From the NCBI RefSeq assembly GCF_000196895.1, contig NC_014297.1, positions 1,660,295-1,724,294 of the forward strand: a stretch of DNA of 64,000 nt, in the 5' to 3' direction. The first letter of the stretch is position 1. Every line of letters starts with the position of its first letter. The notes below the pieces were generated by a model that was not told the DNA's origin, did no database searches, and was given only the letters and a program-made list of their open reading frames with translations. The stretch is from Halalkalicoccus jeotgali B3. Lineage in GTDB: Archaea; Halobacteriota; Halobacteria; Halobacteriales; Halalkalicoccaceae. The translations under genes and the position numbers were made by a program. This document shows, piece by piece, positions 6,511 through 8,962 of the stretch.

Positions 6511-7404
6511 ATGGCGACTATCATCGACGGGAACGCAGTCGCGAGCGCGATTCGGGACGACCTCGGGGCGGCCATCGGGACGCTCGGCGACGAGGGCGTG
6601 ACGCCCGGACTGGCGACCGTCCTCGTCGGCGACGACCCCGCAAGCGAGACGTATGTAAACATGAAACAGCGCGACTGCGAGGAGGTCGGACTGAACGGGA
6701 TCCACGTCGACCTCCCGGGCGATGCCTCCCCCGAGGAACTGTACGACGCCATCGAGGACCTCAACGCCGACCCCGCGGTCCACGGCTATCTGGTTCAGGA
6801 CCCCGTCCCCGAGCAGATCGACTACCGGGAGGTGATCCGCCGGATCGACCCCGCGAAGGACGTCGACGGCTTTCATCCCGAGAACGTAGGCCGGTTGGTC
6901 GCCGGTGACGCCCGGTTCAAGCCCTGTACGCCCCATGGGATCCAGAAGCTGCTCGCCGCCTACGACGTCGAGACCGAGGGTGCGGACGTGACGATCGTCG
7001 GCCGGTCGGACATCGTCGGCAAGCCGATGGCGAACCTCCTGCTGCAGAAATCCCACGACGGCAACGCCACCGTCACCGTCTGTCACTCCCGAACCGAGGA
7101 CCTCGCGGCGAAGACCCGGCGTGCCGATATCGTCATCGCGGCCTGTGGCGTGACCGAACTGATCGACGGCTCGATGATCGGGGAGGGCGCGACGGTGATC
7201 GACGTCGGGATCAGCCGGGTCGAGGACGACTCCGAGAAGGGCTACGAACTCGTCGGGGACGTCGAGTTCGAGAGCGCGAAGGAAGTCGCGGGCGCGATCA
7301 CCCCCGTCCCCGGCGGCGTCGGGCCGATGACCCGCGCGATGTTGCTGTACAACACCGTCAGCGCCGCGAGCCTGCAGGAGTCGGTCCCCGTCGACCTACC
7401 CTAG
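6511..7404 (+). CDS. folD: Bifunctional methylenetetrahydrofolate dehydrogenase/cyclohydrolase FolD
   Basis: FolD oxidises 5,10-methylene-THF and hydrolyses the product to 10-formyl-THF, feeding purine synthesis. The 297-aa product has the active-site pair Tyr48 and Lys52 in ETYVNMKQRDCEEVG, the PCTPHGIQKLL motif, the Rossmann motif GRSDIVGKPMANLL, and the C-terminal GGVGPMTRAMLLYNT. The start is uncertain: ATATAC near 6463 would place transcription start near 6490, where an in-frame ATG would add seven residues. The 6511 start matches the common family N-terminus. Its 3' end overlaps the convergent zinc-ribbon gene by 9 nt. Confidence 0.95.
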   Translation: MATIIDGNAVASAIRDDLGAAIGTLGDEGVTPGLATVLVGDDPASETYVNMKQRDCEEVGLNGIHVDLPGDASPEELYDAIEDLNADPAVHGYLVQDPVPEQIDYREVIRRIDPAKDVDGFHPENVGRLVAGDARFKPCTPHGIQKLLAAYDVETEGADVTIVGRSDIVGKPMANLLLQKSHDGNATVTVCHSRTEDLAAKTRRADIVIAACGVTELIDGSMIGEGATVIDVGISRVEDDSEKGYELVGDVEFESAKEVAGAITPVPGGVGPMTRAMLLYNTVSAASLQESVPVDLP

Positions 7405-8121
7405 GGCGTCGAGGCGCTCCCTGGCGCGCGCGAGTGCGAGTTCGTCGTCGTCCCGGACGGCGCTCCCGAGGTCGCGCGCGGCCTCGACGAGGCGTTCTGG
7501 CGTTCGCGTCTCGACGCTTCCGTCGAGGGCCTCGACCCGTCGGACGTGATCGTCGAGCCGGCCCAGCGCACGCCTGACGGTCGGAGACGCCTCCTCCCGG
7601 GCGTCGAGAAAAGCGAGGAGGTCCTCTCGGTAGGTCGAGACTGCCTTCGCGTAGGCGAGCGCGCGGGCGGATACGAGCGAGTCGGGTACCTCCGCCGGCG
7701 GCGGCCGCTCGCCTCCCAGCAACGCGAGGAGATATAGCTGTTCGGCGTCGTCGGTTTCCGTCTCGAGCGCGCCCGAGGAGAGCGAGCGCTCGTAGCTCCC
7801 GATCGCGGTCCCGAGTTCGCTCGCGATCAGGTAGGTGTCGTCCAGATCGCGCAACTCGCCGCCGTCGACGAACCCCCGCTTTCGGCGGTAGCTCCGACAG
7901 CGCTCGGCGACCTCGCTTGCGACCTCGCTCAGCGGCCGCTCGTCGATCCCCTCGATGAGCGGGGCCAGATCGAGTTCCGCCGGGCCGTCGGTGTGGAGCT
8001 TTCGCTCCTCGTGGCCGACGCTCCGGAGGCTCCCACAGTCGGGACAGGCGACCTCGCCGGTCTCGTAGTACGACCAGCGCGTCCCACACGCCGTACATTC
8101 GCGCTCACCTCTGATCTCCAT
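7396..8121 (-). CDS. Zinc-ribbon haloarchaeal protein (DUF7117-like)
   Basis: The 241-aa protein starts with a rubredoxin/TFIIB-like zinc ribbon: Cys9 and Cys12 in ECTACGTRW, and Cys26 and Cys29 in ACPDCGSL. The rest is a helical, charged domain without membrane segments, with repeats of Arg/Glu-rich amphipathic helix to the end (ALARARERLDALG). I recall this arrangement as haloarchaeal family DUF7117. Binding to nucleic acid or a protein partner is plausible from the ribbon, but no function is established. It overlaps folD tail to tail. Confidence 0.8.
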   Translation of the reverse strand: MEIRGERECTACGTRWSYYETGEVACPDCGSLRSVGHEERKLHTDGPAELDLAPLIEGIDERPLSEVASEVAERCRSYRRKRGFVDGGELRDLDDTYLIASELGTAIGSYERSLSSGALETETDDAEQLYLLALLGGERPPPAEVPDSLVSARALAYAKAVSTYREDLLAFLDAREEASPTVRRALGRLDDHVRRVEALDGSVETRTPERLVEAARDLGSAVRDDDELALARARERLDALG

Positions 8122-8228
8122 GGCCGGGCGTTGGTACGCCGGGGTAAAAACCGATCCGACGGCCCCGGTGGTTCGACGAAGCGAAACCGGCGTGTAGTTT
8201 GATGTGGCGTGCGGTCGCAGATGGACGT

Positions 8229-8375
8229 ATGCGCACAGAAGAAGAAATCCGCGAGCAGTACGAGTTCCTCGCCGAACAGCTCGAAAGCGAGGAGATGCGC
8301 CACCAAGGAGTGAGAGAAATGTTTACATACTACAAGCGTGCGTTGGGCTGGGTGCTCGAAGAGGAGTACATATAA
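8229..8375 (+). CDS. Conserved 48-aa haloarchaeal small protein
   Basis: The frame from ATG 8229 to TAA 8375 encodes MRTEEEIREQYEFLAEQLE followed by a second helix ending KRALGWVLEEEYI. It is charged, helical and soluble, and has strong haloarchaeal codon bias despite its size. The same helix-turn pattern occurs in a small protein I recognise from other haloarchaea. Function is unknown; the two amphipathic helices suggest a protein-protein contact. It is divergent from the zinc-ribbon gene and lies just before the RNA candidate at 8428. Confidence 0.72.
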   Translation: MRTEEEIREQYEFLAEQLESEEMRHQGVREMFTYYKRALGWVLEEEYI

Positions 8376-8397
8376 CAAATCGGACTAGTGTCGGTAG

Positions 8398-8405
8398 GTT
8401 TAATA
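8398..8405 (+). promoter_or_regulatory. TATA-like box upstream of hairpin element
   Basis: GTTTAATA is centred near 8402, about 26 nt before the first base of the hairpin at 8428. No start codon in a good frame follows, so it may drive a non-coding transcript. Confidence 0.4.
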
Positions 8406-8427
8406 CGCAATGGCGTGATTAGTCGAG

Positions 8428-8523
8428 TGACGCTTCGCTTTGGAGGGCCGAAGCGTCAGCGGGGACCAATTCAGGGCGGCAAGCAGCCACGCGGGGATTT
8501 TTCCTCCCCGCGTGGATTGCTTC
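8428..8523 (+). ncRNA. Candidate small RNA with two stem-loops
   Basis: The first hairpin is a perfect 10-bp stem, TGACGCTTCG (8428-8437) with CGAAGCGTCA (8449-8458) around an 11-nt loop. The second has an 11-bp core, CCACGCGGGGA (8487-8497) with TCCCCGCGTGG (8505-8515), extended by AAGCA/TGCTT pairing (8481-8485 and 8518-8522) and a T-rich loop. A TATA-like box sits one promoter length upstream of the first stem. This could be a free small RNA or the structured end of a lost IS200/IS605-type element; no transposase remains. Confidence 0.35.
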
Positions 8524-8686
8524 CATGAAACCGAATCCGCGAGCGCCGCGGCCGGTCCGACTGCCGACGGTTCTGTCCTATCGTAGTAGATACCATACCT
8601 GTTCGACGTGATAGAATCGCCCGACGGAGCCGTTGTCCCCGACATGTTTATGCGTGCCGCCACTGATCTGTCAGTACAGTATAGAC

Positions 8687-8962
8687 ATGCACGACCTGAC
8701 GGGCTTTCAACGGGATCTACTCTACGTCATCGTGGGAGAGGAGGAACCGCACGGGCTGGCGATCAAGGAGGAACTGGAGGGGTACTACGAGAAGGAGATC
8801 CATCACGGCCGACTGTATCCGAATCTCGACACGCTCGTGGACAAGGGCCTCGTCGAGAAGGGGCAACGTGACCGACGGACCAACTACTACACGCTGACGC
8901 GACGCGGACGCCGCGAGATCGAGGCGCGACGGGAGTGGGAGTCGCGGTACGTCGATCTCTAA
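8687..8962 (+). CDS. PadR-family transcriptional regulator
   Basis: The 91-aa protein is a compact winged helix: MHDLTGFQRDLLYVIVGEE, then GLAIKEELEGYYEKEIHHGRLYPNL-like recognition region with the PadR signature HGRLYPNLDTLVDKGLVEKG, and the wing TNYYTLTRRGRREIEARREW. PadR regulators usually repress nearby transporter or stress genes. The gene immediately downstream, 39 nt away, is an MgtC/DUF4010 membrane protein, which is a reasonable but untested target. The start is the ATG at 8687, preceded by AT-rich promoter-like sequence. Confidence 0.87.
   Translation: MHDLTGFQRDLLYVIVGEEEPHGLAIKEELEGYYEKEIHHGRLYPNLDTLVDKGLVEKGQRDRRTNYYTLTRRGRREIEARREWESRYVDL

Follow-up and report, generated by a model that had tools for sequence, protein, structure and literature searches.

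A probable noncoding RNA gene with a conserved hairpin and its own predicted promoter in haloarchaea

In the window, a 64,000-nt stretch of DNA from Halalkalicoccus jeotgali B3 (contig NC_014297.1), a TATA-like box stands ahead of two stem-loops, which raises the question of what this locus encodes and how its product might act. A first-pass annotation, made from the sequence alone, had suggested an independent small RNA driven by a promoter of its own or, alternatively, a relic of a mobile element. Our comparison indicates that the locus is most likely an independently transcribed noncoding RNA gene of ~95-110 nt with a haloarchaea-wide core, and from its sequence and relatives we put the probability that a real, ancient noncoding RNA gene exists here at roughly 0.95.

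Predicted promoter and RNA fold

All elements of the locus lie on the forward strand. Direct reading of the sequence gives a BRE-like CGGTAG (8392-8397) followed by the TATA box GTTTAATA (8398-8405), both also defined by per-position counts over 172 loci. Transcription is predicted to start at 8425-8427 (±3 nt), ~25 nt 3′ of the TATA centre and at a C-A-G-G consensus. Stem-loop 1 (8428-8458), delimited by sequence reading, fold and model alignment, is formed by TGACGCTTCG (8428-8437), which pairs perfectly over 10 bp with CGAAGCGTCA (8449-8458) and encloses the 11-nt loop CTTTGGAGGGC with its invariant TGGAGGG. The single-stranded linker GCGGGGACCAATT (8459-8471), assigned by comparison of copy types, leads to hairpin 2 (8478-8524, i.e., 8481-8522 plus GG/CC at the base), which was assigned by an arm-swap test and folds. 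In this hairpin, CCACGCGGGGA (8487-8497) pairs with TCCCCGCGTGG (8505-8515) over 11 bp, and an outward AAGC/GCTT extension carries the stem to 8481-8522. The TATA-like box, the perfect 10-bp stem-loop at 8428 and the extended second stem thus lie exactly where the first-pass annotation had placed them. The region 8420-8535 folds with an energy of -54.4 kcal/mol compared with -40.6 ± 3.7 kcal/mol for 200 dinucleotide shuffles (z -3.7), and 1 of the 200 shuffles folded equally well.

The promoter elements are shared by the relatives of this locus. Relative to the T of TGACG, the BRE occupies -36 to -31 and TTTAAG or TTTAAT occupies -29 to -24 in the 172 loci compared, with C at -36 in 160, G at -35 in 152, T at -28 in 170, T at -27 in 166 and A at -26 in 163, and C-A-G-G is preferred at -4 to -1, directly before TGACG. 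BRE and TATA box therefore hold one fixed position relative to stem 1, as expected of a promoter belonging to the RNA itself, and from this spacing transcription should begin at the foot of hairpin 1, in agreement with the earlier placement of the start on the first stem from the TATA spacing. The gap between the upstream open reading frame (stop codon 8373-8375) and the BRE is 16 nt in the window, which leaves little room for an upstream activator and suggests that the promoter is mainly basal and that the RNA is likely to be made constitutively.

The two hairpins differ in how they are conserved. Among 144 distinct hairpin 2 tails, 142 form at least 7 bp, and these 142 usable tails contain 122 distinct 5′ arms. 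The mean duplex energy of an arm with its own partner is -28.7 kcal/mol, against -14.3 kcal/mol with partners from other loci; as own-arm duplexes are far stronger than swapped ones while the sequence turns over, this comparison is strong evidence that the pairing of hairpin 2 is under selection. The mean fold z score over 44 sampled loci is -5.0, TTTT lies within the hairpin 2 loop in 108/142 tails, and folds show that the base of the hairpin often reaches into the linker, with changed yet complementary sequences in single loci (e.g., L178 and L058). Hairpin 2 is probably a stabiliser or terminator of the transcript. Stem 1, on the other hand, is paired in 99.6% of cells in an alignment of 25 deliberately diverse sequences, varies only from A-U to G-U, and has 7/9 pairs that never vary. 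Covariation, which had been proposed as a check on both stems, thus argues strongly for stem 2 through the arm-swap test and is neutral for stem 1, since an almost invariant stem offers covariation neither for nor against it. The loop of stem-loop 1 varies in length ahead of the invariant TGGAGGG, where 87 of 173 loci have CT, 45 have CTT, 36 have TC and 5 have other sequences.

Distribution, copies and gene neighbourhood

A BLAST search with positions 8376-8560 found matches in 50 of 59 related genomes. For wider searches we used a 57-nt covariance model (R1) built from 25 hand-trimmed cores picked for diversity, most of them from a set selected by an exact 27-mer. At E ≤ 0.01 the model matches 387/391 genomes of the class, and 375/377 among the best genomes of the class. 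In a draw of 294 genomes from the phylum, 52 of the 53 genomes of the same order carry 67 matches of 68.8-83 bits; below this range lie one degenerate copy at 43.5 bits and other matches of at most 25.6 bits. Outside the order, 40/241 genomes gave any match up to E 0.5 and none exceeded 24.8 bits, against at least 68.8 bits for strong matches, and we rejected homologues beyond the order among these 241 genomes. Within the 391 class genomes, model R1 found the RNA absent from families f10 and f12 (G018, G033, G044 and G020), and BLAST among the 59 relatives also found it absent from G054 and four reduced, incomplete f2 genomes.

The 22-mer GGAGGGCCGAAGCGTCAGCGGG is unchanged in 55/55 full copies from 50 genomes in a pattern search that allowed up to 3 mismatches. 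The core common to all copy types consists of hairpin 1 and AGCGGGGACC; the linker GCGGGGACC is present in every copy type, and the main type retains the later linker segment AATTCAGGGCGG, for which Halorubrum-type copies have other sequence. The 173 loci compared here comprise L001-L030, L039-L063 and L098-L216, in which some genomes are counted twice (hence 144 distinct tails), L191 is missing, presumably because its match lies too close to the end of its stretch, and L031 was omitted as a duplicate. As L098-L216 were selected by an exact 27-mer among the matches listed, the invariance of this 27-mer there is by construction, and the less biased evidence of conservation comes from the BLAST of relatives, the comparison of copy types, the 22-mer pattern search and the genome searches with model R1.

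The gene is a single-copy chromosomal locus in conserved order, and the genome of the window holds one full copy plus fragments. In the phylum draw, 15/17 genomes of family f5 have two copies and 35/35 other member genomes have one; relatives in Haloferax and Halorubrum carry second copies at other loci. Two plasmids, pHLAC01 of Halorubrum lacusprofundi and one of Haloarcula sp. GH36, also bear copies (L248 2995-3105 and L249 2995-3105), which keep hairpin 1 and GCGGGGACC and differ in their 3′ parts; neither coincides with a feature of the PLSDB gene table, in which RNA genes are not listed at all. As second and plasmid copies retain hairpin 1 and GCGGGGACC while flanks and 3′ part change, the RNA core appears to be the selected unit.

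Stray pieces of the core also occur. Two exact 22-mers stand alone as fragments (L065 ~1540 in G003 and L066 ~1501 in G038), which by our estimate is unlikely to be due to chance, and a near match (L067 ~3435, minus strand) lies on G000:C7, a small contig of 6,951 bases from the same assembly as the window. These pieces are without the 5′ stem strand and sit in otherwise unrelated places, and no common context was found for them or for further near matches. The degenerate second copy of 43.5 bits (L064 ~1480-1530) adjoins a transposase-like open reading frame in G056.

The usual place of the RNA is between a 48-aa open reading frame and a RosR/PadR-like gene. The former (8229-8375, forward strand) has a tblastn match at 111/173 RNA loci and matched no Pfam family; it is 70-100% identical at many of these loci and also occurs in two f10 genomes without the RNA (G018 and G044), which keep it at 83-88% identity with other sequence downstream. 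The latter (8687-8962, forward strand) encodes a PadR-family winged-helix regulator (PF03551, 6.5e-18) related to hsRosR (E 1.1e-25 to the chains of PDB 6qfd and others), which from its sequence we infer to be a paralogue of RosR and not the characterised RosR itself; a genome may hold up to 16 relatives of this regulator. A tblastn match to it was found at 112/173 loci, 108 of these downstream on the same strand, and both neighbour counts are lower bounds because the flanks differ in length. In Haloferax and some relatives (12 loci) the RNA has a second context close to a TrkA-N gene, and in Halorubrum it has another near a flavin monooxygenase-like gene (labelled by eye). A DUF7117 protein with a full-length Pfam match is encoded on the minus strand at 7396-8121 and is also found near many RNA loci. 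The fixed promoter in 172 loci, the intact RNA in several contexts and in second copies, and the noncoding character considered below all favour the originally suggested independent small RNA.

Candidate modes of action and rival readings

We consider it somewhat better than an even bet, from sequence comparison, that the locus produces a constitutively expressed, trans-acting noncoding RNA, with the ribosome or mRNA as favoured partner. Its architecture (a hairpin with a G-rich loop, a G-rich linker and a 3′ hairpin) and its persistence in different contexts suggest action in trans. In the proposed mechanism, a bare basal promoter would drive constitutive synthesis of the RNA, its 3′ hairpin would stabilise and end the transcript, and two G-rich surfaces, the loop UGGAGGG and the linker AGCGGGGACC, would be presented in trans to a universal partner, for which the ribosome/mRNA machinery is the favoured hypothesis. 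It is favoured because UGGAGG can pair 6/6 with the 3′ end of 16S rRNA (ACCUCCA); this end reads GGATCACCTCCA and contains ACCTCCA, complementary to the loop. Over a stretch of 5.9 kb comprising the 16S gene and the sequence that follows it, where 23S is expected, the complementarity of the RNA to rRNA was at chance level, with a longest Watson-Crick run of 9 against a mean of 8.9 for 60 shuffles. The 6-nt anti-SD match therefore carries no statistical weight, and an rRNA guide or rRNA pairing was rejected over this stretch. The 22-mer pattern search found no genome with a second match of at least 19/22 nt beyond scattered fragments, which makes long antisense targets unlikely. A two-site complement search returned the RNA itself and scattered matches with no evident common target gene; apart from the RNA itself, the matches have dissimilar sequences with a few seemingly orthologous pairs, and they number about twice those of a reversed-pattern control.

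A simple seed model does not account for the invariance of the paired stem 1. It is possible, and we hold this tentatively, that the molecule is a housekeeping RNA that scaffolds or sequesters a protein, with hairpin 1 and the linker as a sequence-specific protein-binding site, in the manner of 6S, 7SK and CsrB. Stem 1 hardly varies on either strand (7/9 pairs fixed), which fits reading by a protein better than a seed, and the lack of a long antisense target in our searches points the same way, whereas no Rfam family of such a kind was matched. More doubtful is a universal, abundant and constitutive haloarchaeal core RNA whose UGGAGGG loop would dock at the 30S anti-SD and whose invariant linker would serve to act on translation globally; a protein-reading hairpin accounts for the stem invariance better than such docking. 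If true, a ribosome-docking RNA would play the part in archaea that global regulatory RNAs such as 6S or 7SK play elsewhere.

The inverted repeat might instead act as DNA. A perfect 10-bp repeat at the start site beside a RosR-like gene could be an operator bound by the neighbouring winged-helix dimer and not an RNA hairpin, which we regard as improbable: the 1-2 nt differences in the spacer among relatives shift the helical phase, the invariant block continues beyond the repeat into the linker, and hairpin 2 behaves as an RNA structure in the arm-swap test.

A leader or attenuator acting in cis on the PadR/RosR-like gene that follows it would explain the same-strand downstream regulator at 108/173 loci, and the two tend to be found together: the best regulator relatives are 48-56% identical in 5 genomes without the RNA against 82% in the RNA-bearing G019, so that where the RNA is missing (f10 and f12) a close regulator is missing too and both occur within one clade. 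The association is not absolute, as G023 (76% completeness) has the RNA and no regulator match. A leader is very unlikely. The RNA does not keep a constant position and strand upstream of one gene, given that the regulator of Halarchaeum (L162 and L163) is upstream and divergent, on the opposite strand, that in G011 it is ~100 kb away and that second copies stand beside unrelated genes; the regulator also has a TATA box of its own in the window and in the two neighbours that were read. Pairing with the regulator mRNA was rejected, as it gave no signal over controls, with mean energies of -9.9 vs -11.5 kcal/mol for the loop, -12.7 vs -10.8 and -11.9 vs -10.8 kcal/mol for the linker halves, and -17.9 vs -19.0 kcal/mol for the whole linker.

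Haloarchaeal mRNAs are often leaderless, and the earlier statement that no good coding frame follows the promoter needs amending, as there is a frame of 33 codons from a GTG at 8427, the predicted start, to a TGA at 8526-8528. If position 1 is taken to be preceded by G, at least 30 codons are open in 145/173 loci, and the actual base at -1 is G in 115/172. That this frame is a leaderless mRNA for a 33-codon peptide is hardly credible, and we rejected a coding gene: the frame of the invariant nucleotides changes with loop length modulo 3 (125, 47 and 1 of the 173 loci), so that loop indels put the same invariant bases in different frames and argue that the RNA is not coding, and C at position 1 in 15 of 173 loci destroys the start codon. 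The earlier statement thus holds in that the frame is not conserved.

The first-pass suggestion of an IS200/IS605 relic or omega-RNA has next to no chance of being correct: TnpB genes are common in these genomes (19/21), but the element is missing from all 30 TnpB loci compared (best match by blastn 18 nt, 89%, E 0.14), no TnpB gene neighbours the RNA in the window, the sot0042 and sot2652 families of Rfam are not matched, viral contigs and phages gave zero matches, and the RNA keeps a conserved, single-copy chromosomal position.

Comparison with known RNAs

The noncoding RNA gene matches no Rfam 15 family and is unclassified there: the window gave 0 matches over the gathering threshold, and a permissive scan of 8200-8700 (501 bases) returned only FinP on the minus strand at chance level (15.9 bits, E 2.1). 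Known guide classes were also rejected, as the C box RUGAUGA of C/D guides occurs in 0/173 loci and, for H/ACA guides, stem 1 is unbroken and ACA falls within the first 57 nt in only 14/173. With the covariance model, annotators could put a name to a locus that escapes current RNA family libraries, and the function of the RNA is directly testable in genetically tractable haloarchaea.

In architecture, the RNA resembles bacterial Hfq-type sRNAs, which have a 5′ hairpin, a short conserved single-stranded stretch and a 3′ terminator-like hairpin, but it has an archaeal promoter and its U-tract often lies inside the hairpin 2 loop (TTTT in 108/142). The sot0042 and sot2652 RNAs (RF02656 and RF02657), described in parts of PMC8303175 as sense-overlapping IS1341-type RNAs that overlap TnpB genes, are likewise structured haloarchaeal noncoding RNAs; the present RNA neither overlaps TnpB genes nor matches RF02656 or RF02657.

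Several Haloferax volcanii sRNAs can be compared by description. Passages of PMC12482152 describe sRNA_61 as a 111-nt chromosomal RNA of 4,496 TPM with high ribosome occupancy and a 32-aa frame without a stop, for which no protein was seen, and STRG.2577.4 appears in sections of PMC5892119 as a 111-nt intergenic sRNA that is the most expressed (905,191 TPM). Both are like the present RNA in size and chromosomal or intergenic origin as far as these descriptions go. The open frame of sRNA_61 is also matched by the second Haloferax copy, in which a 111-nt transcript starting at -2 to 0 would have exactly 32 codons without a stop in 5/6 species, compared with 4.2% of random 111-nt windows giving such a frame. 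The second Haloferax copy may be sRNA_61, a circumstantial lead from description. A text search within open-licence literature did not find the RNA sequence printed in H. volcanii papers. Excerpts of PMC6104027 present rancRNA_s194 as an independently transcribed intergenic RNA of H. volcanii with a TATA box; it shares with the present RNA its intergenic origin and own TATA, and association with the ribosome is the mode proposed here. Portions of PMC10927574 mention HVO_2908s and H3.2, intergenic sRNAs of H. volcanii vesicles with close relatives in Hbt. salinarum vesicles.

In the sections consulted of PMC3956466, haloarchaeal sRNAs are described as poorly conserved: 22/27 deleted sRNA genes occur only in H. 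volcanii, while H225.2R, whose deletion strain is pleiotropic, hts10 and htsf_359 show conservation across 19, 18 and 12 genomes, respectively. Compared by description, this is far narrower than the distribution of the present RNA, whose occurrence in 387/391 genomes with an unchanged 22-nt block points to a core function.
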